The position numbers and the translations under genes were made by a program. This document shows positions 8,413-61,732 of a stretch of DNA of 64,000 nt, in pieces. Each line of letters begins with the position of its first letter. Within the stretch, counting starts at the first letter, position 1. The notes beneath the pieces are model-generated. The model worked only from the letters and a program-made list of their open reading frames with translations, had not been told where the DNA came from and searched no databases. Source of the DNA: Gammaproteobacteria bacterium (lineage in GTDB: Bacteria > Pseudomonadota > Gammaproteobacteria > SZUA-140); assembly GCA_015491865.1 (NCBI GenBank), contig WFVD01000006.1, positions 1 through 64,000 of the forward strand, written 5' to 3'.

Positions 8413-8865
8413 CTATCGATCCTGCTCCTGCGAAGTCGTCGCGATGATATTACCCTGCTCATCATGACTCATCAGCAGGCGTCGAGATTGACGCCAGCAG
8501 GCAACCTGTTCAGTGGTCACACCAAAATCATCGGCCAGTGATGCATCATCGACTGCTACTCGCGCACTGCGGCGCTCTTTTCCCCGAAACCGCCACAGGT
8601 TAACCGCCGCCCAGATCCCCAGTGTGGCACTAATCAGAAAGATCACCAGAACGTATAACCCCAGCAGATCGAGCAGTGTCTGCAACCCTTCCCGCACCAC
8701 CATCTCATCATAAAAAATCTCTACACCAAACAGCCAACCCGCCAAACTTAGCAGCGGTATCCAGAGATAAAACCAGATCACCCAGAACAGAAAGGTTAGA
8801 AAGCTATAACCGAATCGCTGACGTAAGGTCTGCATATCTGGGCGCTGAATAATATGAGGATTCAT
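8413..8865 (-). CDS. pgaD: PGA synthase accessory subunit PgaD
   Basis: A 150-residue inner-membrane protein with two hydrophobic helices (about residues 19-46 and 66-90) and a basic cytoplasmic tail. It is last in a pgaABCD order, and its start overlaps the pgaC stop in a TAATG. In E. coli, PgaD binds PgaC, and the pair is stabilised and activated by c-di-GMP to polymerise poly-beta-1,6-N-acetylglucosamine. The sequence is poorly conserved across species, so the call rests on position, size and two-helix topology. Confidence 0.88.
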   Translation of the reverse strand: MNPHIIQRPDMQTLRQRFGYSFLTFLFWVIWFYLWIPLLSLAGWLFGVEIFYDEMVVREGLQTLLDLLGLYVLVIFLISATLGIWAAVNLWRFRGKERRSARVAVDDASLADDFGVTTEQVACWRQSRRLLMSHDEQGNIIATTSQEQDR

Positions 8866-10127
8866 TAACGTACACCTCTATCAGGGCTAACCCATGTAGC
8901 ACGGGCGCCTTTCTTTTTAAATAGCGCTTTTGGCACAGCAACCACCGTAGTCGCAACACTTAACAGCCAGAACACAAGCGGGTACCACACCATCCAATAG
9001 TAGATTTTTCCAATCCCTTTTTCATAACGTGAATCAATGGTGAGACTGATCGCAAACTGCAACAAACAGGTAACACCAAGCACCACACCATTCCAGCCGG
9101 GTAACAGCGTTGGAATAGAGAGCGGTGGAGGCAACTCAATAAACTGCCCTGCAACCCATAAACCGAAGACACACAACATGACATAAGCCCAGAGCACACT
9201 GGTAAAATATTCGAGATAGACCGGCCACATGCGCCGCATACGCCAATGTGGAATACGCGGCAGGTATTTGATGAGCGCCTCCGTGCCGCCTTGCGACCAC
9301 CTGATGCGCTGTTTCCATAGCCCCGCCAGGGTTTCAGGCATCAAGATCCAGCAGAGGGCATGTGATTCAAAGCGAACATCCCAGTGGCGCAGCTGTAGCT
9401 TCCAGCTGATATCGATATCCTCTGTCACCATATCGGTACTCCAGTAACCGACATCATGCAGCGCACTTTTACGAAACCCGGCCACGACACCCGAAACGGT
9501 AAATATTCGACCATAGATACGCTGAGCTCTTTTGATCATGCCGATAATAGCGGAAAATTCACCGACCTGAATCTTTCCCAGCAGTGTTGAGCGAGTGCGT
9601 ATGCGTGGATTACCGGTGACGGCGGCCACACGCGGACCGTTAATAAAGTGGGTCATTATCCAGCTAATGGCATGCTCATCTAACAGCGCATCACCATCAA
9701 TGCAGACCAGAAACTCATGCTTCGACACCAGCGTTCCCATTTTCAACGCTACCGCCTTGCCTTCGTTTTTAGCCAGATGAACAACTCGGAGCTGCGGGTA
9801 TTGTGCACTGAGCTCATCGAGTATCACCCCTGTATCATCGGGGCTACCATCATTGATGGCGATGATTTCAAACGCTGGATACTCCTGCAGCGTCAGTTGT
9901 GTGATTGTTTCTCGAACATTACCCCCTTCATTAAAACAGGGTACGATAATAGAAACAGGGGGATATTCTTTTAATACGGGTGGTTGGTCAATCGCTGCGC
10001 CTGAACTTCGCTCCCAGTGGTAGTAGTAATAGAGTGCGCCCACCATCCACAGGTATGCCATAAACAGCGGGTAATAAAATGCAAAGTTAAGCATTCCATT
10101 GACAACTTGATCAATCAATTCAGCCAT
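8865..10127 (-). CDS. pgaC: Poly-N-acetylglucosamine synthase PgaC
   Basis: A processive family-2 glycosyltransferase that polymerises UDP-GlcNAc and extrudes the chain across the inner membrane. It has an N-terminal membrane segment and a GT-A domain with the nucleotide-binding SIIVPCFNEGGNVRETI and CIDGDALL blocks, the catalytic TEDIDISWKL and the processive-enzyme QRIRW motif; membrane helices follow. The start is ambiguous, either GTG at 10130 or ATG at 10127. The pgaB stop overlaps this codon pair (TGATG) and a GGAG ribosome-binding site lies just upstream, consistent with translational coupling. With PgaD it forms the c-di-GMP-responsive synthase, so the diguanylate cyclase at 35.6 kb is a plausible upstream regulator. 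Confidence 0.96.
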   Translation of the reverse strand: MAELIDQVVNGMLNFAFYYPLFMAYLWMVGALYYYYHWERSSGAAIDQPPVLKEYPPVSIIVPCFNEGGNVRETITQLTLQEYPAFEIIAINDGSPDDTGVILDELSAQYPQLRVVHLAKNEGKAVALKMGTLVSKHEFLVCIDGDALLDEHAISWIMTHFINGPRVAAVTGNPRIRTRSTLLGKIQVGEFSAIIGMIKRAQRIYGRIFTVSGVVAGFRKSALHDVGYWSTDMVTEDIDISWKLQLRHWDVRFESHALCWILMPETLAGLWKQRIRWSQGGTEALIKYLPRIPHWRMRRMWPVYLEYFTSVLWAYVMLCVFGLWVAGQFIELPPPLSIPTLLPGWNGVVLGVTCLLQFAISLTIDSRYEKGIGKIYYWMVWYPLVFWLLSVATTVVAVPKALFKKKGARATWVSPDRGVR

Positions 10128-12079
10128 CACTGCTCCACATAAGGGTAGTTGCTGAGAGAGAACTCTGGATGGATCACATCCAGCAGCGGGTGGTTTCTAA
10201 TGAAATCATCTGGATAGTAACCAAAATTTAACACCCCCTTACGCTGCAGTAGTCGCATATGGCGTGCGATCTCTAGCGAGTCAATCGGCTTTTTATTTCG
10301 CCAGTCAATGCTCTGTAATTCAAAAACCACGCTGCTCAGCTCTCCTACCTGCTCAATGGCATGAGAGACCAGCGATGCCAGCCATTCATCTGCATCTGCC
10401 GCCTCTTCCATATAAGGCATCGCCATCACGGCAGTATAATCATAGTTTTCAACAAAGAGCGGTAACGACTGAGCAAACCATGTTTCAGACTCTGGCTGTA
10501 GAATCACACGTGCATAGAGGTTACGGGCTGTCTTTATATCGGAGCGATACTGTTTTACGCGGTCACGCAGATAATGAGTAAACTCAATTAATGCCTCTGT
10601 TTTACCTCTGCTCCATTTATTCAACAGTAGAGGATCGCGCCGGATCTGTTCAATGGAATCAACCATCCCCAGCTCCTCACGATAATATTGCAGCGCCCAC
10701 GGGCTGCTATCCTCAAAGTCACTCAAATAGGCGTCATCATGAAACAGCAGGCCGGCGAAATTAGCCTGCCTGGCGAGATCTTCGTAGATATCACCGATCA
10801 CCTCTCGAACCCGCGGGTGAAAGGGCGAGAGACGACGGTAAGAGTCGTCGGGAATAACGCCATGTGGATGCGGCACGCTTTTCACATAATATGCTGACAG
10901 TGGATGATCATCCTTAAACTGATAAGCGAGCACTGGTAACCAGGCGTATACACTCACTCCAGCACGGGTTCGCAACTGCCAGGCAACGCGATTAAAGAGA
11001 TCGGCGCGCATCGGTAGATGCCGATTGGGATAATAAAGTGCATCGGCGTGACCATCACCATCCGGATCAGCATAGGCCTGAAGATAGACTGTGTTGATCT
11101 GTAGTGACTTGATACGGTCAAGTAGTAGCCCGAGGTTTTTCTCCTGCTGTCGAGGGTCATCATCATAAACGTAATCAAGATCGACATGGGCGACGCGCAC
11201 TGGTGGCTCTTTCCAGGGTTGCAGGTCCCAGACCATGTCAGAGAGTGTTGCGTTGTTTTTAACCAGCACACGCTTAATACTGGAAAGCTCAGAGAGGTGG
11301 CTGCCCCCACTATCGAGGCTCATGGTGTAGGGCATCCCCACACTGGTAGCAATGTCGATGGAGACCTGGTTATAGGCACCGTAAGGCCAGACCAGCACTC
11401 GTGGTGCTTTGCCAGTGTGTTTTTTAATCTGGTTGACACTTTTTGTTAAGTCATCTCGCAGACGCTGTTTAAACTGGGCTTCACTCTCATAGCGGCCACT
11501 CACGTGATCATAACGTTGTGTTACGGCAGCCGGCTGGCTATTCCCCTGTGGGTTGGCGCTGATACCCCGATGAAGATCATAACTATGCGAGGCGACCTCA
11601 ACCAGGCCAGAGCTGACCATCTCATTCACTTCGTGCCATTCAAGAAAATGTTCACGCGGCACCTGTTCATCACCGTAGGCGACCATCTCTCCGGCCGGCA
11701 CATCCATCCACTTCCCAACCAGTGCGATCACCGCCGGGTAATTAAATAGTTTTAGCAGCGGAAAAACACGGGTATAGACACTTCGATAACCATCATCAAA
11801 ACTCAATAATATCGCCCTGTCTGGCAACGGCCTGCCACCGTTCCGTGCGACGATGATCTGCTCCATACTCACTGGCTGATAGCCCTGTTCACGTAGCCAT
11901 GAAAACTGTGAAACCAGCTCGGCGCTCTTGATGAACATGATGCTACTCGAGCCAGACAGCACCGCATCATCACTGACATCGTGATAACTCAATGTAATAA
12001 AACGTTGTGATGGCGGCTGTGCATGCGCCACGCCAAGCAGGCTCCAGATAATAATCAACATAAAGCTCAGGCGTTTCAC
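10127..12079 (-). CDS. pgaB: PGA N-deacetylase/hydrolase PgaB
   Basis: A 650-residue two-domain periplasmic protein. The N-terminal polysaccharide deacetylase (NodB-like) domain has TLSYHDV, LLSFDDGY with the catalytic Asp and metal-binding Asp, and ASHSYDLH with metal-binding histidines. The C-terminal PgaB glycoside-hydrolase domain begins near VAHVDLDYVYDDD and includes YAWLPVLAY. Partial deacetylation of PGA is needed for export through PgaA. Unlike E. coli PgaB, which is an outer-membrane lipoprotein, the signal peptide here (about residues 1-20, ending GVAHA) has no cysteine lipobox and looks like a signal peptidase I type. The start is GTG and lies two bases after the pgaA stop. Confidence 0.96.
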   Translation of the reverse strand: MKRLSFMLIIIWSLLGVAHAQPPSQRFITLSYHDVSDDAVLSGSSSIMFIKSAELVSQFSWLREQGYQPVSMEQIIVARNGGRPLPDRAILLSFDDGYRSVYTRVFPLLKLFNYPAVIALVGKWMDVPAGEMVAYGDEQVPREHFLEWHEVNEMVSSGLVEVASHSYDLHRGISANPQGNSQPAAVTQRYDHVSGRYESEAQFKQRLRDDLTKSVNQIKKHTGKAPRVLVWPYGAYNQVSIDIATSVGMPYTMSLDSGGSHLSELSSIKRVLVKNNATLSDMVWDLQPWKEPPVRVAHVDLDYVYDDDPRQQEKNLGLLLDRIKSLQINTVYLQAYADPDGDGHADALYYPNRHLPMRADLFNRVAWQLRTRAGVSVYAWLPVLAYQFKDDHPLSAYYVKSVPHPHGVIPDDSYRRLSPFHPRVREVIGDIYEDLARQANFAGLLFHDDAYLSDFEDSSPWALQYYREELGMVDSIEQIRRDPLLLNKWSRGKTEALIEFTHYLRDRVKQYRSDIKTARNLYARVILQPESETWFAQSLPLFVENYDYTAVMAMPYMEEAADADEWLASLVSHAIEQVGELSSVVFELQSIDWRNKKPIDSLEIARHMRLLQRKGVLNFGYYPDDFIRNHPLLDVIHPEFSLSNYPYVEQ

Positions 12080-12080
12080 G

Positions 12081-14522
12081 CTAAAATCTCCATCTCAGTG
12101 ATAGATCAAACTGTTCCCTAAACTCTGTCACACCATCGTAGGCACGCTGCCCTCTTGAAATGGCATAACGCAGTTCAGTACGGTCATTAAAATTCCATTG
12201 ATGCTCATAGCGCACTGTCCAGATCTGTTTTCCCCCATAGTTTTTCTGCTGATATTGCCCAACCGTAAGCGTAAGGCGATGGCGATAGGCGTAGTGATAG
12301 TGCCGTTTCAACAGCCATTCATTGATGAGACCGAGCTGAATGGTGGCATCACTTTCAGGGTTAAAATAGGGTGTGCCAGAACGGCTATTTTTCGACGTAT
12401 TGAGGCTCAGGATGCCATTCAACTTATAGTCGACCTTTGTGATCAAACGCTGATCGAGTGAAGCCCCGGCGCTTTGACGCCGGTTATTATCACTGAACTC
12501 CAGCCATCTAAGCGAAGTATCGATGCGGCGAAGTTCGTGAAAACGATAACTCACACCAATACCGCTACCCCAGCCGTCAACCCCCTGGGCACGCCCTCGC
12601 AGTGGAACATCATTACTATAACTATCAAGATTGGCAGAGAGCGACCAGTAGTCATCGATCATCCACACCCCTTCGCTGTTCAGGCCAATATCTGCGGCAC
12701 CGCCAAGATTACGCGCCAGCTCACTACGCAGCTCCAAGTCTCGCCCACGGTATTCGATACCCGCTCCAATACGGCGATAAATCGAGGTGCCTTCAGGAAA
12801 GCGCGCCTGAGCATGGAGGTGATGAAGATAGGGGCGATAGTGAGACTGTAGCGGACGGCCGAAAAGGTAACTGTTTAACGTTAAGTCACGACTCCCTTCC
12901 TGAACACCTGAGCTAAGACCTCGTGAAAAGTCGATTCGCAGCTCTCGCATGTTATGCAACTGCCATAGGCGATTAACATTTTTTAACCGAGAACTTTCCG
13001 GATAACGTCTATTTAACGCATCAATGCCCTGCTCGACCAGTGGGAACTCATACAGCGCATAGCGCGCATGCACCCGACCAATCGCCGCATCAAGGTAGTC
13101 TGGATCCTGAAAACCACCGATCTCAAACGCCTCCAGCGCACGCCGTGGCCAGCCACGCCACAAATAGATATAACCCAGGCTTGTACGAATATCGAGATTG
13201 GCCGGAGCCTGCCGGTTCAGTGGCTCCAGTCTGTTTTGCGCCTCGGCCAGCTGATCAATATAAGCGCGTGCATATGCAGCCGTTATCTCAACCGGGACTT
13301 TATCTGGATTCTGCGCTGGCCTGGCTGAATCTGCGAGCCGTTTCCATTCCGGTTGCTCGCGATTAAGGCGATCAATCAGTTCAATCGCGTTATCGTACTC
13401 CTCACACTCAATGTAGGCATAAAAAAGTGATAACTGAACCGCAACTGTCTGTTTACCAGCAGAGAGCACCTCAAGATAGAGATCCCGTGCCATCTCTGGC
13501 TCCTCAACCATAAAGTAGGCATCGGCAGCCGCAATTAATGCATGTCTCGAAAAGGTTGCTGCCTGCGCAGCCAGCTGCTGGTAAAGTTCGATAACTTCTG
13601 GCATGCGCTGTAGCGCCTGGAGAGCAACCATCAAATCAAATGCTACACGCTGATATTGAATACTCTCCCCCTGACCCGCTTCGCTTAATTCAACGAGTCG
13701 CCTCTTAAGGTAGACAACCGCTTCTGTTACTCGCTGCTTTTGCGCTCGCTCAGCATCACTTGAAAAGGCAGGCAGACGCCCCCAGCGGATTGAAATTGCG
13801 GCAACATCACGGTTGATCGCACTCACTTCATCTGCTGTGAGTAGACCTGGGTGGTTTTTTACCATGCTAGACGCCAGATGTGGGGCACCCAGACGATAGG
13901 TCATCAAAATACGCCCACGCAGACCATTAAGGTGGTCGGGGGCTAACTGAAGAATTTTCTCGTAGCGTGCCAGTGCGGCAAAATAGTGTTTGAGCGAAAT
14001 ATTGACGTACGCCTCTGCTTCAAGTAATTCCAGCACTTCAGCATCATCAACCGCGCTGTGATCACGAATAACCGCTAACGCCTCTTCTCCTCTTTGACTT
14101 TCACTAAGCGCAAGCGCCAGCCCCAGGCGACTCTGTAGTCGCAGAGGCGCACGCTGCACAGCAGCCTGATATGCCTGCACTGCAAAATCATAACGTTTCA
14201 GATTACGAGCAGATTTTCCAATCGTCTCAAGCACATAAGGCGGCAATTGCTCAAGCTCAAGCTGATCTGCATGTTGTAGCACCTCCGCATCCCGCTCTTC
14301 CCACCCGAGGATGGCGATATAGTCGTAGTAATACTGCGGCCTCTCCGGAAAATGGGCGCGTAGAAGTGAAAGCTGCGCCAGCGCCCGCTCACTCTCTCCC
14401 GCACGCGCAAAGCCCAAAGCCTCCTGATGTAATGCTGTTGCATTACCCTCCAGTGGTATTTCAGCCGCAACTGAGCCCGCGAATAAAGCAACAAATAGAA
14501 AAAAAAACCGCCAGCCAAACAA
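12081..14522 (-). CDS. pgaA: PGA outer-membrane export porin PgaA
   Basis: An 813-residue protein with a signal peptide (about 1-20), a long N-terminal superhelix of tetratricopeptide repeats (about residues 30-500, e.g. ALAQLSLLRAHFPERPQYYYDY and YDFAVQAYQAAVQRAP), and a C-terminal beta-barrel (about 515-813) with alternating aromatic residues ending in the outer-membrane signature LRWRF. PgaA binds deacetylated PGA and secretes it. The start codon is TTG, chosen because AAGGA lies about nine bases before it and the product begins with a good signal peptide. It heads the pgaABCD operon. Confidence 0.95.
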   Translation of the reverse strand: MFGWRFFFLFVALFAGSVAAEIPLEGNATALHQEALGFARAGESERALAQLSLLRAHFPERPQYYYDYIAILGWEERDAEVLQHADQLELEQLPPYVLETIGKSARNLKRYDFAVQAYQAAVQRAPLRLQSRLGLALALSESQRGEEALAVIRDHSAVDDAEVLELLEAEAYVNISLKHYFAALARYEKILQLAPDHLNGLRGRILMTYRLGAPHLASSMVKNHPGLLTADEVSAINRDVAAISIRWGRLPAFSSDAERAQKQRVTEAVVYLKRRLVELSEAGQGESIQYQRVAFDLMVALQALQRMPEVIELYQQLAAQAATFSRHALIAAADAYFMVEEPEMARDLYLEVLSAGKQTVAVQLSLFYAYIECEEYDNAIELIDRLNREQPEWKRLADSARPAQNPDKVPVEITAAYARAYIDQLAEAQNRLEPLNRQAPANLDIRTSLGYIYLWRGWPRRALEAFEIGGFQDPDYLDAAIGRVHARYALYEFPLVEQGIDALNRRYPESSRLKNVNRLWQLHNMRELRIDFSRGLSSGVQEGSRDLTLNSYLFGRPLQSHYRPYLHHLHAQARFPEGTSIYRRIGAGIEYRGRDLELRSELARNLGGAADIGLNSEGVWMIDDYWSLSANLDSYSNDVPLRGRAQGVDGWGSGIGVSYRFHELRRIDTSLRWLEFSDNNRRQSAGASLDQRLITKVDYKLNGILSLNTSKNSRSGTPYFNPESDATIQLGLINEWLLKRHYHYAYRHRLTLTVGQYQQKNYGGKQIWTVRYEHQWNFNDRTELRYAISRGQRAYDGVTEFREQFDLSLRWRF

Positions 14523-18646: not shown

Positions 18647-18694
18647 ATAGCATCTCATATACACCTTATGGGCCGTAACGGAGGATTCAAAAAT

Positions 18695-19507
18695 ATGTTC
18701 AGCGCAATCGCAAGATTTTTCTCAGGTGGATCATCAGAATCAAAGCAGGCTAGCCTTTATGAACGTATCGGTGGCGATGCTGCCGTTAATGCTGCTGTTG
18801 ATGTCTTTTATCGCAAGGTGCTTGCGGATGACCGCATCAACCAGTTCTTTGAAGGGGTCGACATGGATAAACAGTCGGCCAAGCAGAAGGCGTTTCTTAC
18901 CATGGCATTCGGCGGCCCTAATAACTACACCGGTGAGGATATGCGTAAAGGACACGCTCATCTTGTCGAGAAAGGGCTGAATAACAGCCACTTTGATGCT
19001 GTCATGGAAAACCTTGGCGCAACCCTGACTGAACTGGGAGTGCCCGCTGAGTTGATCGGTGAAGCAGCGGCAATCGCAGAGAGTACTCGTGCCGATGTGC
19101 TGGCTGGTTTTACGGCAGAAGAGAAAGCAGCGCAGGCCAATAAGGATTCTGTCTATGAACGCATTGGTGGTGAAGCGGCCGTTAACGCTGCTGTTGATAT
19201 CTTTTACCGCAAAGTGCTTGCCGATGAGCGTATCAACAAATTCTTTGAAGGGGTTGATATGGATAAGCAGGCGGCTAAACAGAAAGCCTTTCTTACCATG
19301 GCACTCGGCGGCCCGAACAACTACACCGGTGAAGATATGCGTAAAGGGCACGCTCATCTGGTTAAACAGGGGCTTAACGATAGCCATTTCGATGCTGTTA
19401 TGGAAAACCTCGGCGCCACACTGGCCGAACTGAATGTGCCAGATGAGCTAATTGCAGAAGCAGCCGCGATTGCAGAGAGCACTCGGAATGATGTTTTAGG
19501 GAAATAA
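18695..19507 (+). CDS. Tandem two-domain truncated haemoglobin (group I)
   Basis: 270 residues made of two nearly identical group-I truncated globin domains (about 20-137 and 151-270) joined by a short acidic/Ala-rich linker. Each has the YERIGG start, a B10 tyrosine in VFYRKVL or IFYRKVL, the CD1 phenylalanine in FFEGVDMDKQ and the proximal histidine in MRKGH (H87 and H219). The sequence closely resembles cyanobacterial GlbN, except that the E10 histidine of Synechocystis is lysine here (QSAKQKAF, QAAKQKAF). A 16-residue N-terminal amphipathic stretch, rich in Phe then Gly/Ser, precedes domain 1. The ATG at 18695 is chosen because GGAGG lies ten bases upstream; an ATG 27 bases earlier has no such site. 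O2 or NO handling is the likely role. Confidence 0.93.
   Translation: MFSAIARFFSGGSSESKQASLYERIGGDAAVNAAVDVFYRKVLADDRINQFFEGVDMDKQSAKQKAFLTMAFGGPNNYTGEDMRKGHAHLVEKGLNNSHFDAVMENLGATLTELGVPAELIGEAAAIAESTRADVLAGFTAEEKAAQANKDSVYERIGGEAAVNAAVDIFYRKVLADERINKFFEGVDMDKQAAKQKAFLTMALGGPNNYTGEDMRKGHAHLVKQGLNDSHFDAVMENLGATLAELNVPDELIAEAAAIAESTRNDVLGK
18752..19503 (+). repeat. 396-base-period duplication inside the globin gene
   Basis: The codons for the two globin domains are direct repeats with a period of 396 bases (for example the Tyr codons at 18758 and 19154). Long nucleotide runs are identical, such as those around the AACTACACCGGTGA segment, which points to a recent in-frame duplication or ongoing gene conversion. 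Confidence 0.8.
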
Positions 19508-19703: not shown

Positions 19704-21347
19704 GTGAGCGATGTAGTGAGCATAGCCGGCACCCAACAACATGACGTTCTAATTATTGGCAGTGGTGCCGCTGGCATTAGCATGGCGCTGACACTCGCCG
19801 ATAGTGCGCGGGTTGCACTGGTCGCCAAAGAGGCCCTGACTGAAAGTGCGACACTCTATGCGCAAGGCGGCATCTCTGCTGTTTTAGATGAGACTGACTC
19901 ACTTGAGTCTCACACCGCAGATACGCTGAATGCTGGCGCGGGACTATGCGATGAGGCAGTCGTACGTCACGTGGTCGAGCAGGGCCCGAAAAGTATTCAG
20001 TGGTTAATTGATCGAGGCGTCAGTTTCACCAGGGAGCAGAACAAAAAAGATAGTGCCGATTACCATCTCACTAAAGAGGGTGGTCACAGCCATCGACGTG
20101 TGATCCACGCCGCCGATGCCACTGGACGCGAGATGGAGTTGACACTGGCACAGCAGGCACGTGAACACCCCAATATTGAAATCTTCGAGCGCCACATCGC
20201 GATCGACCTGATCACCGGCAGTAAACTAGGCTGGCGTGATAACCGCTGTCACGGCGCCTACCTCCTTGATCGCGACAACGACAAGGTGGTCGCATTTTCA
20301 GCCCGTGCCGTGGTGCTCGCCACCGGGGGTGCAGGCAAGGCCTATCTATACACCAGCAATCCTGACATCGCCTCGGGTGACGGCATTGCAATGGCATGGC
20401 GTGCCGGCTGCCGCATCGCCAACATGGAGTTTATTCAGTTCCACCCCACTTGTCTGTTTCATCCGCAGGCGAAGTCATTCCTAGTTACCGAGGCGCTACG
20501 CGGTGAAGGGGCCAGGCTCAGCCTGCCTGATGGCAGCCGCTTTATGGAACAGTTCGATGAGCGTGCCGAACTGGCACCGCGTGATATTGTCGCACGTGCG
20601 ATCGACCACACCATGAAACGCTCCGGCGTCGAATATGTACATCTCGACATCAGCCATCAACCCGCAACGTTTATCAGGGAGCATTTCCCAACCATTTATC
20701 AACGCTGTCTTGAGTATGGCTACGATATTACCCGCCAGCCGATCCCGGTGGTGCCAGCGGCGCACTATATCTGCGGCGGCATCATGAGTGATATTCACGG
20801 CCGCAGCGATCTTGAAGGGCTTTATGCCGTTGGGGAAGCCGCCTATACCGGCATGCACGGCGCAAACCGCATGGCGAGCAACTCCCTGCTGGAATGTCTG
20901 GTGTTTGCCGAATCAGCCAGTCGCCATATCCTTGAGCAGCTCAAGCAGCCAGGTTCACCGCAACCCCTGCCTGAGTGGGATGAAAGCCGCGTCACCAATT
21001 CGGATGAGGAGGTTGTCGTAACCCATAACTGGCATGAACTACGCCGCTTCATGTGGGACTATGTCGGCATCGTGCGTACCGACAAGCGCCTGCAACGTGC
21101 CAAAAATCGGGTCGATCTTTTACAGCATGAGATATCTGACTACTACAGCAACTTCCGGGTGACCAGCGATCTGATCGAGCTGCGTAATTTAACGCTCGTT
21201 GCCGACCTGATCATCCGCTCAGCGATCCTGCGTAAAGAGAGCCGCGGTCTCCACTACACCCTGGACTACCTCGACCGTAGCCAGGAAAAACGGCCGCAAA
21301 CAACCATTTTAATCCCCAACAATTACATCAGGGCGAAGGCCACTTAA
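19704..21347 (+). CDS. nadB: L-aspartate oxidase NadB
   Basis: NadB oxidises L-aspartate to iminoaspartate, the first step of NAD synthesis, using O2 or fumarate as electron acceptor. The 547-residue protein has the FAD-binding [14 protein letters not shown] motif, [14 protein letters not shown] (no histidine for covalent flavin, as usual for NadB), [22 protein letters not shown] and [17 protein letters not shown]. The C-terminal three-helix domain (about 430-547) is intact. The start is GTG at 19704 with only a weak ribosome-binding site. nadC is at 54975 in this window, while nadA is not present. The downstream frd-like genes begin 67 bases after its stop and may be co-transcribed. Confidence 0.96.
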
Positions 21348-21373: not shown

Positions 21374-21382
21374 TGATATACT
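21374..21382 (+). promoter_or_regulatory. Extended -10 element before the frdB-like gene
   Basis: TGATATACT (TGN plus TATACT) ends 32 bases before the frdB-like start. No good -35 is seen, as expected for extended -10 promoters. It suggests that the redox module can be expressed apart from nadB. Confidence 0.4.
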
Positions 21383-21414: not shown

Positions 21415-22053
21415 ATGACCACAGCCGTAACCTCTGAAAGCTACCACGAGATCACTGTCAACGGTATGCCGCTTTCAGTCTCACCCAACCATTCGCTAAT
21501 TCAGGCACTATGGAAATCGGGCCACCCGCACTTTAAAAGGGCAAGCTGCCTTGAGGGGGTGTGCGGCTCCTGCCGTATGATGGTGAAATACTGCGGCCAG
21601 TCTGAGGTCCGTTTTGTGCTGGCGTGTCAGAGCAGTGTTGAAGCCGGAATGCAGGTGCTCTTCCCTCAACACCTTGAGAAACAGTCATCCGCACTGTTAA
21701 ACCACCGCTATCAGCTGCCGTCATCAGGTGCTGACGAACAACGCCTCCATGATCTCTTTCCTCAGGTGGCTCACTGCCGACATTGCCACGGCTGTACTAT
21801 CGCCTGCCCCAAGGGGATTGATGTTGAGAAAGGAATCACACTGGCTCATGAGGGGAAACTCAAAGCCGCGGGTGATCTGTTCATCAACTGCGTCATGTGC
21901 GATCTCTGCACCACCAGCTGCCCGGAAAATATCGCGCCCAATTATGTTGCTCTGTTTGCTCGTCGTACCACCGCCTTTAACAGACCACTGCCTGACAACC
22001 TTGCCGCTCGCCTGCAGGCGCTGCAGCGCGGTGAACTCACGATTAACTATTAA
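21415..22053 (+). CDS. FrdB/SdhB-like iron-sulfur subunit
   Basis: 212 residues. An N-terminal 2Fe-2S ferredoxin domain binds through C45, C50, C53 and C71 (SCLEGVCGSC and LAC). A C-terminal alpha-helical ferredoxin domain has two motifs: C121, C124, C127, C131 (CRHCHGCTIACP) and C159, C162, C165, C169 (CVMCDLCTTSCP). Canonical SdhB/FrdB proteins lack one cysteine in the second motif and hold a 3Fe-4S cluster there; here all four are present, so a second 4Fe-4S is predicted, as in TfrB/HdrC-type proteins. It would carry electrons between the NuoF-like and FrdA-like subunits encoded next. No membrane-anchor gene (frdC/D) is nearby. Confidence 0.88.
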   Translation: MTTAVTSESYHEITVNGMPLSVSPNHSLIQALWKSGHPHFKRASCLEGVCGSCRMMVKYCGQSEVRFVLACQSSVEAGMQVLFPQHLEKQSSALLNHRYQLPSSGADEQRLHDLFPQVAHCRHCHGCTIACPKGIDVEKGITLAHEGKLKAAGDLFINCVMCDLCTTSCPENIAPNYVALFARRTTAFNRPLPDNLAARLQALQRGELTINY

Positions 22054-22058
22054 ACGCG

Positions 22059-23651
22059 ATGGACAACGGCACACCTCTTGAGCAGGCTCGATGCGAATAT
22101 CGCATTGATCTCAACCGGCCGCAGCGGGCAGCGGAAAAAGAGCACGCTGCGCTGCTACAGCGCTTTCATCCCGATTATGCCAGCGATAACCGCATCCCAC
22201 TGACCATTGGAGTCAACCGTCACGACCCCTGCCATCCTCAGCTGGCTGCGTTACTGCAGTCGGACTCACAAACGGATGAGCAGACACTTGCGGCGGCTGA
22301 ACAGATCGAGACCGAGATCCTGGTCATCGGCGCTGGCGGTGCCGGCTGCAGTGCCGCACTGGTCGCTGCTGAGAGCGGTGCCGATGTGCTGCTCGCCACC
22401 AAACTACGCCTGGGGGATAGCAACACCATCATGGCGGAAGGGGGGATCCAGGCTTCGATCGAGGCCGGCGACACACCCCAGGCTCACTTTGATGAGACCC
22501 TGCGTGCCGGCCACCACTGTAGTAATAAACAGCTGGTAAAACAGATGGTGCTCGACGGGCCGGCGGTGATCCAGTGGCTGATTCAGCAGGGCATGCAGTT
22601 TGACCACGATCAGCGGGGTAACCTCTGCACCCGTCGTGCGGGCGGCACCTCTGCTGATCGCATCCTCTACTACCGTGACTACACCGGCCTTGAGATGATG
22701 CGTGTACTGCGTGAGGCGGTACGCCAGCATCATAAAATCAACACTGCCGACTACAGCCCCGCGGTCGAACTCTTATCGAATTGTTCCGGGCACTGCACCG
22801 GTGCGCTGCTCTATTCAATTGAGCAGCAGAAATACAGTGTGGTTAACGCTCAATCTGTCATCCTCGCCAGCGGCGGGCTGGGGCGTATGCACCTCAACGG
22901 TTACCCAACCTCGAATCATGTCGGGGCAACAGGTGACGGCCTGGTGCTCGCCTACCGACTGGGGGCAAAACTGCAGGCGCTCGACTCATTCCAGTACCAT
23001 CCGACAGGTCTCGCCTGGCCACAGACACTGGCAGGCACCTTAATCACCGAAGGGATACGTTCAGCGGGTGCACAACTGGTGAATAGTCGTGGAGAACGTT
23101 TTATCGATGAGCTTGCGCCACGCGACGTGGTCTGCGCCGCCATCTTGCGCGAATGTAGCGAAGGACGCGGCATATCGCTGGCCAGCGGGCGGCAGGGGGT
23201 ATGGCTCGACACACCAGTACTGGAACAGCAGCAACCGGGCATGCTTGCAAAACATTTCCCCAAGTTCATCAGCCTCTGTGACAAAGCGAAAATCGACCCC
23301 TACCACTCCCCCCTCCTGGTCTGTCCGACACTTCACTATCAAAATGGTGGGGTCGTCATTAACGAAGCGTGCGAAACGACGATCCCGGGGCTCTTCTGTG
23401 CCGGCGAGGTGAGCGGTGGGATTCACGGTAAAAACCGCATCATGGGCAATGCGCTGCTGGAGATCATCAGCTTTGGTCGACGCGCAGGAGCTGCCGCAGC
23501 CGCACGTGAGATGCCAGACAACACAGAACGGTCACTTGCCCATTTAGAACGTTTCCGTCATGAACGGCAACAGCACAATATCAAAAACAGTGGACAGCAA
23601 GGACCGCTACTCTTCCCCCACTACGCCAGTTTTAATCGAGAGAGTGCATGA
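22059..23651 (+). CDS. FrdA-like fumarate reductase flavoprotein
   Basis: 530 residues of the succinate dehydrogenase/fumarate reductase/NadB flavoprotein family. An unusual extension of about 85 residues precedes the FAD motif GAGGAG (91-96). Dicarboxylate-binding and catalytic residues are conserved: H314 (FQYHPTG), Glu/Arg in TEGIR, R355 (LAPRDVV), H426 (LHYQNGG) and R460 (GKNRIMGN), at spacings like those of E. coli FrdA. The flavin-linking histidine is replaced by N122 (GDSNTIMAEGG), so FAD should be non-covalent; in FrdA this favours fumarate reduction over succinate oxidation. The gene starts five bases after frdB-like and overlaps nuoF-like by four bases. Reaction inferred: fumarate to succinate. 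A different dicarboxylate or enoate remains possible. Confidence 0.85.
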   Translation: MDNGTPLEQARCEYRIDLNRPQRAAEKEHAALLQRFHPDYASDNRIPLTIGVNRHDPCHPQLAALLQSDSQTDEQTLAAAEQIETEILVIGAGGAGCSAALVAAESGADVLLATKLRLGDSNTIMAEGGIQASIEAGDTPQAHFDETLRAGHHCSNKQLVKQMVLDGPAVIQWLIQQGMQFDHDQRGNLCTRRAGGTSADRILYYRDYTGLEMMRVLREAVRQHHKINTADYSPAVELLSNCSGHCTGALLYSIEQQKYSVVNAQSVILASGGLGRMHLNGYPTSNHVGATGDGLVLAYRLGAKLQALDSFQYHPTGLAWPQTLAGTLITEGIRSAGAQLVNSRGERFIDELAPRDVVCAAILRECSEGRGISLASGRQGVWLDTPVLEQQQPGMLAKHFPKFISLCDKAKIDPYHSPLLVCPTLHYQNGGVVINEACETTIPGLFCAGEVSGGIHGKNRIMGNALLEIISFGRRAGAAAAAREMPDNTERSLAHLERFRHERQQHNIKNSGQQGPLLFPHYASFNRESA

Positions 23652-24895
23652 CAACCACACCTGATCAGCTGTTACGTCATCCAGACAACTGCTGTACCGA
23701 ACTTGCAGCGTGGCTAGAGGGGCATGGCGGAAAAGGGTTAGCGACGGCGCTGCACGACCCATCAACAATCATCCCAACAATTAAAGCAGCGGGGCTGCGC
23801 GGCCTGGGCGGCAGCGGTTTTCCTGCTCATCAAAAGTGGCAAACGGTGGCTGCGCAGCCGCCCATCACTGACCGTTATCTCATCTGCAACGGCAATGAAG
23901 ATGAGCCGGGTACCTTTAAAGACAGGCTTTTGTTAGAGGAGTCGCCACATCAGGTCATTGAAGGCGCCTTAATTGCTGCGCTCGCGACAAACATCAATCA
24001 GATCATCTTTTATATCAACCCTCACCTGAAGCGCGCGTATCAAATATTGTCTGAAGCGCTAACCCAATGGCGACAGAGCCACTATCTTCAGCAGCTATCA
24101 GCGCAACTGGGGAGCGCGCTGCAATTAACGCTCACCGCCTCCCCGGGCCACTACATTGCAGGCGAGGAGACTGCGGCAATTGAATCTGTTGGGGGCAATT
24201 TTCCCTTCCCTCGTGGCAAGCCCCCCTATCCGGCAACTGCCGGCGTTCACGGGAAACCAACATTGATTAATAACATTGAGACTCTCGCCAACGTATCACA
24301 TATTATGCGTAACGGTGCAGCTTGGTTTCAGTCCCTTGGGCATGGCCACTGTAGTGGTACCAAAATCTACTGTGTCAGCGGTGATGTGGTATCCGCTGGC
24401 GCCTATGAGTTGCCGATGGGGACGACACTGGCATCACTTGTTTTTCAGCAGGCAGGCGGCCTGCGTGACAACCGCAGGTTAAAAGCGGTCTTTACCGGCG
24501 GGCCATCCAGCTCAATACTGGGGGCTGATGCGTTAGCAGTGGCACTCGATTTTGACTCACTTGCACAGCACCAGGCCGCGTTGGGAACGGGCGCGATGAT
24601 TGTCGTCGCCGAAGGAAACCCCATCATTCCGCACATAGCGCAGTATCTCGATTTCTTTTCTCGCGCCTCATGCGGGCAGTGCCCACCCTGCACCAGCGGG
24701 ACACGGGAGATGGCACAGCTCACCAAGAAAATGGCCACCGGTGGAGGCTGCACCGAAGATCTCAAATCGCTAATCAGCCTGAGTGAGATGCTACCCGGTA
24801 GTGGCCGCTGCCACCTGGTCGATGGGGCCGTGACGCTACTGAAAGGCTCGCTTGACCATTTCCGGCAGGAGTATCAGCAGGCATTGAACCGCTAG
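23648..24895 (+). CDS. NuoF-like NADH-binding flavoprotein subunit
   Basis: 415 residues matching the NADH/FMN/4Fe-4S subunit of complex I and NAD-linked hydrogenases. Visible motifs are GLRGLGGSGFPAHQKW (FMN/NADH Gly-rich loop), DEPGTFKDR, AGEETAAIESVGG, KPPYPATAGVHGKPTLINN and the C-terminal cluster motif SCGQCPPCTSGT with a later Cys in GGGCTED. No NuoE-like 2Fe-2S partner is adjacent; the frdB-like protein may take that role. Start overlaps the frdA-like stop (ATGA), so the three genes form one coupled unit. Inferred role: feeding NADH electrons to the fumarate reductase in the cytoplasm. Confidence 0.88.
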   Translation: MTTTPDQLLRHPDNCCTELAAWLEGHGGKGLATALHDPSTIIPTIKAAGLRGLGGSGFPAHQKWQTVAAQPPITDRYLICNGNEDEPGTFKDRLLLEESPHQVIEGALIAALATNINQIIFYINPHLKRAYQILSEALTQWRQSHYLQQLSAQLGSALQLTLTASPGHYIAGEETAAIESVGGNFPFPRGKPPYPATAGVHGKPTLINNIETLANVSHIMRNGAAWFQSLGHGHCSGTKIYCVSGDVVSAGAYELPMGTTLASLVFQQAGGLRDNRRLKAVFTGGPSSSILGADALAVALDFDSLAQHQAALGTGAMIVVAEGNPIIPHIAQYLDFFSRASCGQCPPCTSGTREMAQLTKKMATGGGCTEDLKSLISLSEMLPGSGRCHLVDGAVTLLKGSLDHFRQEYQQALNR

Positions 24896-25041: not shown

Positions 25042-25905
25042 ATGAAGACACTAGAACCCAAAAAAGTGGATATCAAAGAGATCCCACTTTGGTTTAAAGA
25101 GTCGTTTAGCCTGATTGCCCGCCGTTTTCCACTTTTCATCGCCTCCATCGGCACATTTTTTATCATCCTCTTTTTTACTATTCGTGCCTTTGCCACGCTT
25201 GCAGAGCAGACCCACCCCCTGGTACTGCTGCCGCTATTTCTGCTCTTCGTCGCATTTGTGATGCATCTCTTTTTTAGTGATTTTCTGCTGCTGGCCTTTT
25301 CATCCGATAACTCACGCAAGATCGGCATCAGCGAACGGGCGCATGCATTGATTCCAGAACAGAAATCTTTTTTAAAAATGACCTTGATGGCCTTTCTGGT
25401 GGGATCCGGCTTCTGGCTGATCAGCCTCTCGATGCACCTGGACCGAGACCTGTTAAGCGCCTGTATTAGCGTAGTGGATCGCATGTTATTTGAGAAAGAG
25501 ATGCCGCTATTTTTTATGCTGCAGCTGCTCGCAACCATGCTCTATTTTATGTTACTGGCGATGTTTCTGCTGCGTACGATCTTCTGCATTCCACTGATGC
25601 TATTTCATGAGCTGCCCTATGCCGAGGCAAAGGCACTGAGTCATCGCGCGATCATCATCAACTTCCAGACGATGTGTACCGCGCTGGTGCTATGGGCAGT
25701 TTTGCTACTGGGTACAATGGCGGTAGCCAATATGCTTGTATTTGTGATCTTTCCGCTATTGCCTGTCTATATTTTTGTCTGCTACCGCAGTATCTTTCTT
25801 GGGCAGACGGAGAACAGCCCGGCCAGAGTGGTCAACACTGAGCTAACAGCATCCACTCCCGGAGATAGCTCTTTTTTAACGGGCCGTACCAGAGCAAACT
25901 TCTAG
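25042..25905 (+). CDS. Uncharacterised six-helix inner-membrane protein
   Basis: 287 residues, not recognised. A short cytoplasmic N-terminus (LWFKESFSLIARRF) precedes about six hydrophobic helices (roughly 31-50, 60-82, 110-128, 150-178, 205-230, 232-250), and a polar tail follows. The pattern of an amphipathic lead-in followed by helices recalls small membrane proteins related to BPSS1780/DUF families, but no family could be assigned. It has its own strong promoter. Its stop codon and that of the convergent SirB2 gene share the palindrome CTAG at 25902-25905. Confidence 0.75.
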   Translation: MKTLEPKKVDIKEIPLWFKESFSLIARRFPLFIASIGTFFIILFFTIRAFATLAEQTHPLVLLPLFLLFVAFVMHLFFSDFLLLAFSSDNSRKIGISERAHALIPEQKSFLKMTLMAFLVGSGFWLISLSMHLDRDLLSACISVVDRMLFEKEMPLFFMLQLLATMLYFMLLAMFLLRTIFCIPLMLFHELPYAEAKALSHRAIIINFQTMCTALVLWAVLLLGTMAVANMLVFVIFPLLPVYIFVCYRSIFLGQTENSPARVVNTELTASTPGDSSFLTGRTRANF

Positions 25906-35554: not shown

Positions 35555-36589
35555 CTAACCACGCTGATCATCATGCTCATGCTTCGCCCGACAGCAACGA
35601 TTACGCCCCTGCTTTTTCGCTTCATAGAGTGCGGCATCTGCCAGCGTAATCAAACTCGCCGAATCATCACCACATTGCGGTGGTATGCCTGCCGCACCGA
35701 GCGAAATCGAAACGATATCGCCGACACCGGAGAACTCATGTTTAAGTGCTAACCGTTCTATCACTGCACGCAGCTCTTCTGCAATCACCATTGCGCCATC
35801 AAGATCGGTATTGGGTAAAACGACTGCAAACTCTTCCCCCCCGTAACGGGCCACCATGTCGGATGAGCGGCGCATCGCACCCGCCAGCGCGGTGGCAACT
35901 TTTTGCAAACAGTCGTCGCCTCCCTGGTGGCCATAGCCGTCATTGTATTTTTTGAAGAAGTCGATATCGATCAACAGCAGTGCAAGACAGGTCTCTTCAC
36001 GCACCGCCCGCCGCCACTCTTTTGTGATGTATTCATCGAATGAGCGGCGATTAGGGACCCCGGTCAGACCATCAATCGCAGAGAGACGCTGTAACTCGGC
36101 ATTCTTTATTTCCAGCTCTTTTTGCAGTTCACGCAACTCCCGGAAAGCGGCATCACGCTGCTGCTGCGCCACAAAACTTCGAGAATGCGCCTCTATCCGA
36201 GCAATCAGTTCAATTTTATCGGGCAGCTTTACAAGATAGTCGCTAGCGCCTTTGCTAAAGGCCTCGCTCTTATCTTTGGGGTCTTCTTTACTCGACAGAA
36301 CAATCACTGGTGTATTCTTCAACGCGGGATGATTGCGGTAGAAATGCACCAATGTCATTCCGTCGATATCGGGCATCACCAGGTCCTGGAGGATCGTGGT
36401 TGGTTTAACCTCCAGCGCCATCTCAACAGCCTTTTTAGGGTCTCGGCAGTAGTGGAACGTGATTGATGGCTCACTTTCTAACATCCGCCGAATCGCCTCA
36501 GCCACAATCAGCTGATCATCAACTAGCAGTACAGTGATCGGCTCTACTGCGATGTTCGAAGGTGGCTGTGGTTCACTATCTTCGCTCAT
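35555..36589 (-). CDS. wspR: WspR-like response-regulator diguanylate cyclase
   Basis: 344 residues. A receiver domain (about 18-140) with D24/D25 and phospho-acceptor D69 (ILQDLVMPDIDG) is joined by a coiled-coil stalk (about 150-180, FRELRELQKELEIKNAELQ) to a GGDEF domain. The active site is GGEEF at 250-254 and the product-inhibition I-site RxxD (RSSD) at 241-244, five residues upstream, so it should be an active, feedback-inhibited c-di-GMP synthase. The ATG at 36589 was chosen because an upstream frame would overlap wspF by 47 bases and GGGAAG lies just before this ATG. It is the last gene of the Wsp operon. Confidence 0.93.
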   Translation of the reverse strand: MSEDSEPQPPSNIAVEPITVLLVDDQLIVAEAIRRMLESEPSITFHYCRDPKKAVEMALEVKPTTILQDLVMPDIDGMTLVHFYRNHPALKNTPVIVLSSKEDPKDKSEAFSKGASDYLVKLPDKIELIARIEAHSRSFVAQQQRDAAFRELRELQKELEIKNAELQRLSAIDGLTGVPNRRSFDEYITKEWRRAVREETCLALLLIDIDFFKKYNDGYGHQGGDDCLQKVATALAGAMRRSSDMVARYGGEEFAVVLPNTDLDGAMVIAEELRAVIERLALKHEFSGVGDIVSISLGAAGIPPQCGDDSASLITLADAALYEAKKQGRNRCCRAKHEHDDQRG

Positions 36590-36605
36590 ACCCGTCTTCC
36601 CATGT

Positions 36606-37637
36606 TCACGCCTGAGCCACGTTATGATATTGCTTGAGTAATACTGCGCCAATCTCTTCGAGTGGCAGAATCTCTACGGCAGCATCTAATGCAGCGGCCG
36701 CTTTTGGCATACCATAAACGGCGCAGCTTGTTTCATCCTGAGCGATGGTGTGAATATTTTTCTGGCGTAGCAACAGCAGGCCTGCCGCACCATCACGCCC
36801 CATACCCGTTAACAACACTGCTGTCATCTCACCACCCCAGTGACTCGCCACACTCTCAAAAAAGACATCGACCGACGGGCGATACACTATTTCTACCGGG
36901 TTTTCAGTATAGGCCAAATGACCACGAGCAGAGATCACCAGGTGGTCATTCGTCGAGGCGAGATAGACGACACCCGGCGTGATACGCTCACCTTCTTCGG
37001 CCACCTTCACCATCATCTTGCACTGCGTATCCAGCCATTCAGCCAGCTCACTAGCAAAATGCGCATCAATATGCTGAATAATTACGACACTGGCAGAAAA
37101 ATCCTCAGGAAACGCTTGCAGCACTTTGGCTAATGCAGGCGGCCCCCCCGTAGAAGAACCAATCACAATCAGCGCCTGCTTTTGCTGTGAAGCTGTCAAC
37201 ATTGGTGCGCGCTTAACCCTGGAGGCTGTTCGTACTGGTTTACGACATGTTAATTTTTCGATCGTTCCAATTTTATCAAGAATAGCCAGCTCGTTCTGGA
37301 ATTCACCCGCACGCCCCAGCTCCGGTGTTTTGACCACATCGAGCACGCCAGCCCCCATCGCCTCAAATACCATACTGCTGTTTCCTTCAACCGAGCTGGT
37401 GACAATCAGAATAGGGCACGGGGTGGCCTGCATGATACGGCGACTCGCTTCAACCCCATTCATCACCGGCATAATCAGGTCCATCAAAATCAAATCAGGC
37501 AAGTCCTCCGCACATCGATTGACTGCCTCTTCACCATTGATCGCAATCCATGCTAATTGATGGTCGGTAGCTAAAGAGAGGAGTCGTTTCAGCCCCTCGA
37601 CGACCATCATGGTGTCATTTACAATCGCGATCCTCAT
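36606..37637 (-). CDS. wspF: WspF-like CheB methylesterase
   Basis: 343 residues: receiver domain (DLILMDLIMPVMNG) and CheB catalytic domain with Ser in IGSSTGGPPALA, His in VIIQHIDAHF and Asp in TGMGRDGAAG. It removes methyl groups from the WspA receptor, and in Pseudomonas its loss locks WspR on and gives wrinkly colonies. It overlaps wspE by four bases. Confidence 0.95.
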   Translation of the reverse strand: MRIAIVNDTMMVVEGLKRLLSLATDHQLAWIAINGEEAVNRCAEDLPDLILMDLIMPVMNGVEASRRIMQATPCPILIVTSSVEGNSSMVFEAMGAGVLDVVKTPELGRAGEFQNELAILDKIGTIEKLTCRKPVRTASRVKRAPMLTASQQKQALIVIGSSTGGPPALAKVLQAFPEDFSASVVIIQHIDAHFASELAEWLDTQCKMMVKVAEEGERITPGVVYLASTNDHLVISARGHLAYTENPVEIVYRPSVDVFFESVASHWGGEMTAVLLTGMGRDGAAGLLLLRQKNIHTIAQDETSCAVYGMPKAAAALDAAVEILPLEEIGAVLLKQYHNVAQA

Positions 37638-39994: not shown

Positions 39995-40665
39995 AACAGG
40001 CTTCTCTTTAGCGAGTTAAAGAGTAACTCCTGATCGAGCAGGCCAACATGCCGCCCATCAAGCTCAAACAATCCGGCCAGATGGGAATACATCGAATTAG
40101 CGGCAGTAACTGGCACATCACGGATATTATCTCGCCAAATTCGGTGAGTACCGATGATCTCACTCACGGGGAAGACAAATTGCTCACTATCTTTAACAAA
40201 GATCACCAGGCGTTCGAGGATATTTTTACGTAATAACGGCGAAGGGATATTTTCCCCTTTATCCACGGATAGTAAGGTACCCATCGACACCCATAGTTTC
40301 AGCTCACCGCGCACATTCACCAGTCCTTTAACCACTGCGCTCTTGGCATTGGGAATCCCATGCACCGGGCGCATCTCAGAAACCTCCTTGATCATTTTTG
40401 TCGGCAACCCAAGCCACTCGTCACCCAGACGAAACACCACTATCGACAAAGCGTCTGTGCTTTTTGTCGCTGCTTCTTTTGCGAGTAATACCGTCCAGTA
40501 CTCCCGGTAGTCTCTGGGTATTTCACGCATCAGCAGGCTACGCCCGGCACTGGCATAAACATCACAGTTACGACAGTGGAGCACCTCCTGAAGGCGTGGG
40601 CATTTCTTATCTGTGCGACTCCAGATACCGATAGTTGACCAGCAGTTATCGATCGGCTCACCCAT
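39991..40665 (-). CDS. wspD: WspD-like CheW adaptor with N-terminal Cys motif
   Basis: 224 residues. A CheW domain (about 70-220, LGDEWLGLPTKMIKEV, VRGELKLWVSMG) is preceded by a segment with C8, C22, C31 and C34 (KKCPRL and HCRNCDVY). This cysteine set is a feature of the WspD adaptor rather than ordinary CheW and may bind a metal. It is 17 bases after wspC and overlaps wspE. Confidence 0.92.
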   Translation of the reverse strand: MGEPIDNCWSTIGIWSRTDKKCPRLQEVLHCRNCDVYASAGRSLLMREIPRDYREYWTVLLAKEAATKSTDALSIVVFRLGDEWLGLPTKMIKEVSEMRPVHGIPNAKSAVVKGLVNVRGELKLWVSMGTLLSVDKGENIPSPLLRKNILERLVIFVKDSEQFVFPVSEIIGTHRIWRDNIRDVPVTAANSMYSHLAGLFELDGRHVGLLDQELLFNSLKRSLL

Positions 40666-40682
40666 TTAAGCACCTATGCCAA

Positions 40683-41969: not shown

Positions 41970-42436
41970 TACTCAACCATTTCAGCCAGGCTGCCATAGA
42001 GGGTGTCATAGTCGCGCCTGGATAACAGTCGATCTACATCCACCCACTGAATAATCCCATGCTTATCTGTCATAATATTCGAGATATAATTCTCTTCAGA
42101 GGGGTTCCGTGTCGATTGATGGAAACGCTCAACATCAAGTTTGACTGTTTCCGTAGCATATTCAACAGTTACACCGAGCAGATGCTCATGACCACTGTAA
42201 CTACTGTAGTTAACCAACAGGATGCGAGTACTCATCACCGCTTTTGACGGGATTCCTTCAAACAGGTAGCGGATATCGACCACCGGCACAGGCTGTGCGC
42301 GATAGTTACATAACCCTGTAATATAATCTGGTGTATTTGAGAAGTTGCTCAACCTAACCAGCGGTACTACTTCAACTACCTTGCAGGCATCGATAACATA
42401 ACGGTCATCACCGACATGGAAGATAACAAAGAGCAT
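41969..42436 (-). CDS. wspB: WspB-like CheW adaptor
   Basis: 155 residues, a single CheW domain (VIFHVGDDRYVIDACKVVEV, YRAQPVPVVDIRYLFEG, ILLVNYSS). It links WspA to the WspE kinase. Start overlaps the wspA stop and its own stop overlaps the wspC start by one base. Confidence 0.92.
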   Translation of the reverse strand: MLFVIFHVGDDRYVIDACKVVEVVPLVRLSNFSNTPDYITGLCNYRAQPVPVVDIRYLFEGIPSKAVMSTRILLVNYSSYSGHEHLLGVTVEYATETVKLDVERFHQSTRNPSEENYISNIMTDKHGIIQWVDVDRLLSRRDYDTLYGSLAEMVE

Positions 42437-61600: not shown

Positions 61601-61732
61601 TAAAGCCACTTTCTCTTAAATCAGGAACAAGTCTGCCGATTCTCTCACAACTTGGCAGTTAGCAGAAATAAGCTTGCGACCACTCATGCTACACTGTCGT
61701 CAGAATATTGAGACTAGATTGCCGCAACACCC

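Follow-up and report, generated by a model that had tools for sequence, protein, structure and literature searches.

A three-gene iron-sulfur, flavoprotein and NuoF-like module predicted to encode a soluble NADH:fumarate reductase in Gammaproteobacteria

Within a 64,000-nucleotide stretch of a Gammaproteobacteria bacterium genome (lineage SZUA-140; GenBank assembly GCA_015491865.1, contig WFVD01000006.1, positions 1 to 64,000; hereafter the window), three consecutive forward-strand genes encode an iron-sulfur subunit (FeS; 21415–22053, 212 amino acids), a flavoprotein (FP; 22059–23651, 530 amino acids) and a protein resembling the complex I subunit NuoF (NuoF-like; 23648–24895, 415 amino acids). 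With a probability of roughly 80%, the products of this triad form one cytoplasmic NADH:fumarate oxidoreductase, in which electrons would run from reduced nicotinamide adenine dinucleotide (NADH) through flavin mononucleotide (FMN), iron-sulfur clusters and flavin adenine dinucleotide (FAD) to fumarate. All three genes are intact open reading frames, with a gap of 5 bases between FeS and FP and an overlap of 4 bases between FP and the NuoF-like gene, matching exactly the layout given in the initial annotation of this DNA. That annotation had proposed a soluble NADH-linked fumarate reductase, a prediction that is well supported by the residues described below, by how tightly the genes are linked and how exclusively they co-occur, and by the substrate-type neighbours. 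It had also reported a module devoid of anchor genes and NuoE, and in the window neighbourhood no NuoE-like, NuoG or SdhC/D-like gene indeed lies beside the triad. Between congeners, all three genes are under purifying selection, with ratios of nonsynonymous to synonymous substitution rates of 0.096 for FeS, 0.089 for FP and 0.065 for the NuoF-like gene.

In the proposed mechanism, a hydride from NADH would be transferred to FMN in the NuoF-like subunit, and electrons would then travel singly through the N3 4Fe-4S cluster of this subunit and onwards through the three clusters of FeS. A non-covalently bound FAD in FP would take up these electrons and reduce fumarate to succinate, with neither a quinone nor a membrane anchor taking part. 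Because the potential drop would be large and covalent FAD is lacking, the enzyme is predicted to be an essentially one-way fumarate reductase. The subunit set, the cofactor and catalytic residues, the linkage, the co-occurrence and the neighbours were read from the sequence, and from these we infer that the proteins assemble, pass electrons along this path and reduce fumarate.

FP is a flavoprotein of the FrdA/NadB/SdhA superfamily (Pfam FAD_binding_2, E 2e-76). Judged by alignment, it keeps all six FrdA-type fumarate/succinate catalytic residues, and both FrdA carboxylate-binding sets appear intact. The residues H314, T330, E331, R355, H426 and R460 (22998–23438, +), which are invariant in 16 FP homologues, correspond to H233, T245, E246, R288, H356 and R391 of Escherichia coli FrdA (counting Met1). 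The position of the histidine that binds FAD covalently in FrdA and SdhA aligns with N122 (22422–22424, +), and the FAD of FP is expected to be bound non-covalently. At the position of NadB Glu121, FP carries Ala194, and all FP homologues have Ala, Val or Gly there; the roles of these aligned positions we take to be those of established knowledge. The best NCBIfam match of FP is TfrA, at 333 bits against a cut-off of 718. A hallmark of the family is an N-terminal extension of ~80 residues (22059–22298, +) with conserved HPD and QLAxxLQ motifs, which is present in Magnetococcia-type and Ilyobacter homologues; no such extension was observed for NadB, SdhA and E. coli FrdA. No Pfam match covers this extension, either in the window or in the homologues.

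FeS comprises Fer2_4 and 4Fe-4S dicluster domains according to Pfam. A plant-type 2Fe-2S motif, C-x4-C-G-x-C ... C (C45, C50, C53 and C71; 21547–21627, +), aligns with E. coli FrdB and eight homologues and is followed by CRHCHGCTIAC (C121, C124, C127 and C131; 21775–21807, +) and CVMCDLCTTSC (C159, C162, C165 and C169; 21889–21921, +), both of which are full CxxCxxCxxxCP 4Fe-4S motifs. A 3Fe-4S pattern and an HdrB/CCG domain were looked for in FeS, and neither was found. The protein scores 31 bits with the dhsB model (cut-off 88) and 25 bits with the TfrB model (cut-off 385); the best stretch of the latter match spans residues 42–81 only, and FeS ends at 212 amino acids.

The NuoF-like subunit is a plain 51-kDa-type core consisting of Complex1_51K, SLBB and NADH_4Fe-4S domains. 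The cysteines of the N3 cluster (C342, C345, C348 and C388) as well as the NAD(H)/FMN residues K63, E84, E86, Y169, E173 and E174 are kept, while the score with the NuoF equivalog model is 377 bits against a cut-off of 558.65. Its FMN loop (23795–23821) reads LRGLGGSGF in the window's genus and in most gammaproteobacterial relatives. Elsewhere in the same genome, inspection of the translations by eye revealed canonical sdhCDAB genes, rnf genes and a complete nuo operon that includes a NuoE and a NuoF. Since complex I is thus separately provided with both subunits, the NuoF-like copy would not be needed for it.

Conservation of the triad was followed in 369 gammaproteobacterial genomes searched for relatives of FP and the NuoF-like protein; some contexts come from contigs of metagenome-assembled genomes, and the sampling beyond Pseudomonadota consists of plasmid records. 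Close relatives of FP occur in 14 of the 369 genomes and those of the NuoF-like protein in 12, with 11 genomes common to both (hypergeometric p about 1e-17). In the twelfth NuoF-like genome (G197), the end of an FP gene lies directly upstream, cut by the contig end, and the NuoF-like gene is hence never found apart from FP (12/12). The three genes are adjacent in every relative whose contig permits checking. The order nadB-FeS-FP-NuoF is kept in the window's genus wherever contigs allow. Four further gammaproteobacterial families (f35, f98, f102 and f125) have FeS-FP-NuoF in full, and in another two (f155 and f37) nothing but contig ends interrupts it. In addition, a protein search of plasmid records revealed adjacent triads in Cupriavidus metallidurans CH34, Paraburkholderia caribensis, Caballeronia sp. 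NK8 and Pseudoroseomonas cervicalis. The initial annotation had named separate contexts of the genes in relatives as evidence against a soluble reductase; a check for such contexts left that reading unrefuted. In the records examined, the triad genes carry generic names or none. A contig scan with FP alone, which also returned two congeners, gave a match in Lapidilactobacillus (L018) that was NadB-like and was discarded as a false lead.

On the phylogenetic tree, FP and its relatives form a single clade apart from NadB and SdhA/FrdA (support 100/100), which splits into a NuoF-linked group of 13 rows (86/70) and a group without NuoF of 8 rows (99/96). As the NuoF-linked FPs form one group, the partnership with NuoF probably arose once, the support of 86/70 being moderate and the tree joining long branches.

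The gene neighbourhoods in relatives all encode products that make, use or transport fumarate, succinate or close products. Outside the window's genus, the triad stands beside KorAB-type 2-oxoacid:ferredoxin oxidoreductase genes in six genomes (G053, G236, G120, G335, G116 and G235), several of which have an RnfB-like gene nearby. The KorA gene beside the triad of G053 (L033:2135-4003) is split over overlapping frames, which may reflect a frameshift or a sequencing error. In G333 (L040) the triad adjoins sucCD, and in G116 (L038) it lies near the malate dehydrogenase gene mdh. A DctA C4-dicarboxylate transporter gene follows the triad in Cupriavidus, while in Paraburkholderia and Caballeronia the triad is divergent from a DASS-family transporter gene. 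Among the sister FPs that lack NuoF, Magnetococcia-type genomes, from another class of the phylum, have FeS-FP-sucCD-korAB operons. In the f116 genomes, a NuoF-less FP is clustered with Hdr and Kor genes and with a gene similar to that of ATP-citrate lyase, an arrangement much like the reductive tricarboxylic acid (TCA) cycle cluster of the Riftia symbiont (Endoriftia), where the gene is named tfrAB (PMC11636981). In Ilyobacter, FeS and FP without NuoF come after HdrBCA and other genes for flavin and Fe-S proteins, with an aspartate ammonia-lyase gene alongside. On Ilyobacter polytropus plasmid pILYOP01 (L105:1-9539), FeS and FP are directly preceded by genes encoding aspartate ammonia-lyase and HdrBCA, together with a hydrogenase iron-sulfur subunit, a pair of 4Fe-4S proteins and an FAD/NAD(P)-binding protein; the full cluster is a candidate for an electron-bifurcating NADH:fumarate reductase in a fermenter.

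The metabolic setting differs between these relatives and the window's genus. In two relatives, G352 (100% complete; L034) and G335 (95% complete), NadB and FP are the only proteins of SdhA type, and a 2-oxoglutarate dehydrogenase E1 above the cut-off is absent from both. The triad seems to be their sole visible fumarate/succinate enzyme of this superfamily, and the absence of SdhA ranks with the strongest indirect indications of the substrate and of the direction of the reaction. In the relatives, the enzyme most likely feeds a reductive branch from fumarate through succinate to succinyl-CoA, and by way of KorAB further to 2-oxoglutarate. The initial annotation had suggested a reductive TCA role, which agrees with the relatives but not with the window's genus. 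There, KorA was found in 0 of 9 genomes, while RuBisCO is present in 8 of 9 and 2-oxoglutarate dehydrogenase E1 in 9 of 9; a reductive TCA cycle is therefore unsupported in the genus and was rejected for the window organism. With its oxidative TCA enzymes, the genus is likelier to employ the triad for re-oxidising NADH or supplying succinate at low oxygen.

Several observations weigh against an NADH:fumarate reductase. The full SdhCDAB of the window's genus leaves the need for a further enzyme there not evident, and the FMN loop of the NuoF-like subunit has Leu for the usual Arg of LRGRGGAGF in the NuoF of the same genome. FP is without the C-terminal Succ_DH_flav_C domain carried by FrdA and SdhA; its N-terminal extension could perhaps act as an interface replacing it. 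Structural prediction with AlphaFold2 gave a mean confidence score (pLDDT) of 36 for FP (3 sequences) and 52 for FeS (2 sequences); the alignments were shallow and the models were not used. It could also be speculated that the triad uses NADH to reduce an alpha,beta-unsaturated acid other than fumarate, such as acrylate, mesaconate, urocanate or crotonate, as the superfamily includes other enoate reductases, urocanate reductase is among the solved-structure matches of FP, and the FP clade is separate from SdhA/FrdA. Yet this is unlikely given the two intact carboxylate-binding sets and the neighbours that handle C4 dicarboxylates across lineages (sucCD, mdh, DctA and aspartate ammonia-lyase). 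Another donor, be it a thiol, a quinol or ferredoxin, might instead mainly feed FeS and FP, making the NuoF-like subunit an optional input, as no NuoF gene lies next to those of FP and FeS in Magnetococcia-type genomes, f116 and Ilyobacter. Such an arrangement is very improbable, since the NuoF-less FPs form a clade of their own (99/96), the NuoF-like gene is always present in the linked clade where the contig allows, and the triad has no anchor and no HdrB-type thiol domain.

Electron bifurcation would be a further way of using the same subunits, two NADH being oxidised by a minimal three-subunit enzyme with one electron pair going to fumarate and the other to ferredoxin, so that in relatives the energy released on reducing fumarate would power the neighbouring 2-oxoacid:ferredoxin oxidoreductase KorAB. 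The NuoF fold carries FMN in electron-bifurcating hydrogenases, which are included among the best solved-structure sequence matches of the NuoF-like protein, and the NuoF-less FP clade has Hdr genes as neighbours in f116, and HdrABC together with flavin/Fe-S genes in Ilyobacter. Hdr-Flx bifurcation with a thiol-fumarate reductase has also been proposed for the Riftia symbiont (PMC11636981). If bifurcation did take place, the Hdr-linked sister clade would represent an alternative solution to the same task. Still, it appears quite unlikely here: the NuoF-like subunit is a core of 415 amino acids, whereas bifurcating subunits run to ~600 amino acids and have additional Fe-S extensions and NuoE/NuoG-like partners, and KorA is missing from the window's genus. 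Finally, FP might be an accessory or NAD-linked L-aspartate dehydrogenase partnering NadB in NAD biosynthesis. The nadB gene (L-aspartate oxidase; 19704–21347, +; NF006567, 939.8 bits against a cut-off of 629) lies directly upstream of the triad in every congener checked, and FP and NadB are 36% identical. Such a partnership is nevertheless extremely improbable and was rejected, as Glu121 is replaced in FP and all its homologues, FP reaches 321 bits with the nadB model (cut-off 452.75), a normal nadB is present, and the linkage is genus-specific. The adjacency to nadB given in the initial annotation holds within the genus but is not a general feature, the triad adjoining nadB in no other lineage examined. 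The nadB gene is regarded as an upstream neighbour in the window's genus only and not part of the complex. A functional link of the triad to the adjacent NadB is possible in this genus; NadB is able to use fumarate as acceptor.

An NADH:fumarate reductase thus remains the favoured function of the triad, and the flanking sequence bears on its expression and extent. The gap between nadB and FeS contains, directly upstream of FeS, an extended -10 promoter-like element, TG-A-TATACT (TGATATACT; 21374–21382, +). It is conserved: 5 congeneric genomes share the block CTGATATA unchanged, while the rest of the gap is poorly conserved; the triad therefore probably has its own promoter, a function ascribed to the element from its sequence. 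A scan upstream of the triad for an FNR box gave no good match. Downstream, after 146 bases, follows a gene for a multi-pass membrane protein (25042–25905, +), which is syntenic within the genus. This protein was considered as an anchor subunit and rejected, as its gene has its own promoter-like site and is missing from the triads of other families.

Other features of the window include a tandem two-domain bacterial globin just 5' of nadB (18668–19507, +), with two Bac_globin stretches in one open reading frame. A pga-type operon for poly-N-acetylglucosamine (8413–14522, -) consists of four genes encoding a PgaA barrel, a deacetylase/GHL13 protein, a family 2 glycosyltransferase and a PgaD-like protein. 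A Wsp-like chemosensory cluster (35555–44469, -) encodes a methyl-accepting chemotaxis protein with HAMP, a CheW-like protein, CheR, CheA-CheY, CheB and a GGDEF response regulator. Lastly, an HtrA-like protein of 954 amino acids (58745–61609, -) has a trypsin-like domain and several PDZ domains, and its second half resembles a diverged second copy.

Fumarate reduction is usually tied to the membrane quinone pool, and a compact, soluble and NADH-driven form would uncouple the two. If the proposed activity is correct, the step from fumarate to succinate would be practically irreversible. Such an enzyme would also account for the supply of succinate and succinyl-CoA in autotrophs like G352, which lack SdhA and a 2-oxoglutarate dehydrogenase over the cut-off. 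As a three-gene building block, the module may also serve the engineering of succinate production or synthetic CO2 fixation. Many sulfur bacteria carry the gene set, and as it is also found in culturable soil bacteria, e.g., Cupriavidus metallidurans CH34, the idea is testable.

Among known systems, the fumarate reductase of Hydrogenobacter thermophilus is reportedly soluble and anchor-free, with NADH as donor and fumarate as acceptor, and is said to consist of five subunits (FrdA-E) whose genes lie at separate sites in the genome. A soluble NADH-dependent fumarate reductase of this organism is named in the title of Miura et al. 2008, as cited in PMC12743299. In Aquifex aeolicus, FrdD is aq_835, 'nox', and FrdC and FrdE are further subunits (PMC10052474); the NADH module is not NuoF, since FrdD is the 'nox' product. 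The window enzyme is by prediction likewise soluble, anchor-free and directed from NADH to fumarate, but differs from this five-subunit Nox-type enzyme in having three subunits, one operon and a NuoF-type subunit, a distinction drawn from the Aquifex subunit table and not from Hydrogenobacter sequences. With TfrAB of methanogens and the Riftia symbiont the triad shares an anchor-free FP and FeS, and TfrA is the nearest NCBIfam model. However, FP falls far below its cut-off, the half of TfrB that handles thiols (CCG/HdrB-type) is missing from FeS, and a NuoF subunit stands where Tfr has a thiol or Hdr donor. Complex II (SdhCDAB, FrdABCD) shares with the triad its FP active-site residues and an iron-sulfur protein that contains a 2Fe-2S cluster, yet the triad is without its anchors, 3Fe-4S pattern, covalent-FAD histidine and Succ_DH_flav_C domain. 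The FMN, NADH and N3 residues are those of complex I NuoF, with 35% identity to the NuoF of the same genome, although the NuoF-like protein stands without NuoE/NuoG and below the NuoF equivalog cut-off. Unlike NadB, FP has no Glu121 and scores under the nadB cut-off, and unlike NuoF-type bifurcating complexes, the triad has neither extra Fe-S extensions nor NuoE/NuoG-like partner genes. The triad departs from each of these classes (complex II, Tfr, NadB and bifurcating NuoF) in at least one tested feature. Soluble fumarate reduction is also carried out by the FMN_bind-type cytoplasmic NADH:fumarate reductases of Klebsiella, which, like Osm1/Frd1, are single polypeptides with no Fe-S clusters and no NuoF subunit. 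The yeast Osm1/Frd1 enzymes resemble the predicted enzyme in reducing fumarate in soluble form (PMC6242907). No description of an enzyme composed of FP, FeS and NuoF was found in the open literature searched, outside which most subscription papers lie, so that its absence is unproven. Soluble NADH:fumarate reduction is thus known but rare, and what would set the present enzyme apart is its putative NuoF-type NADH subunit.

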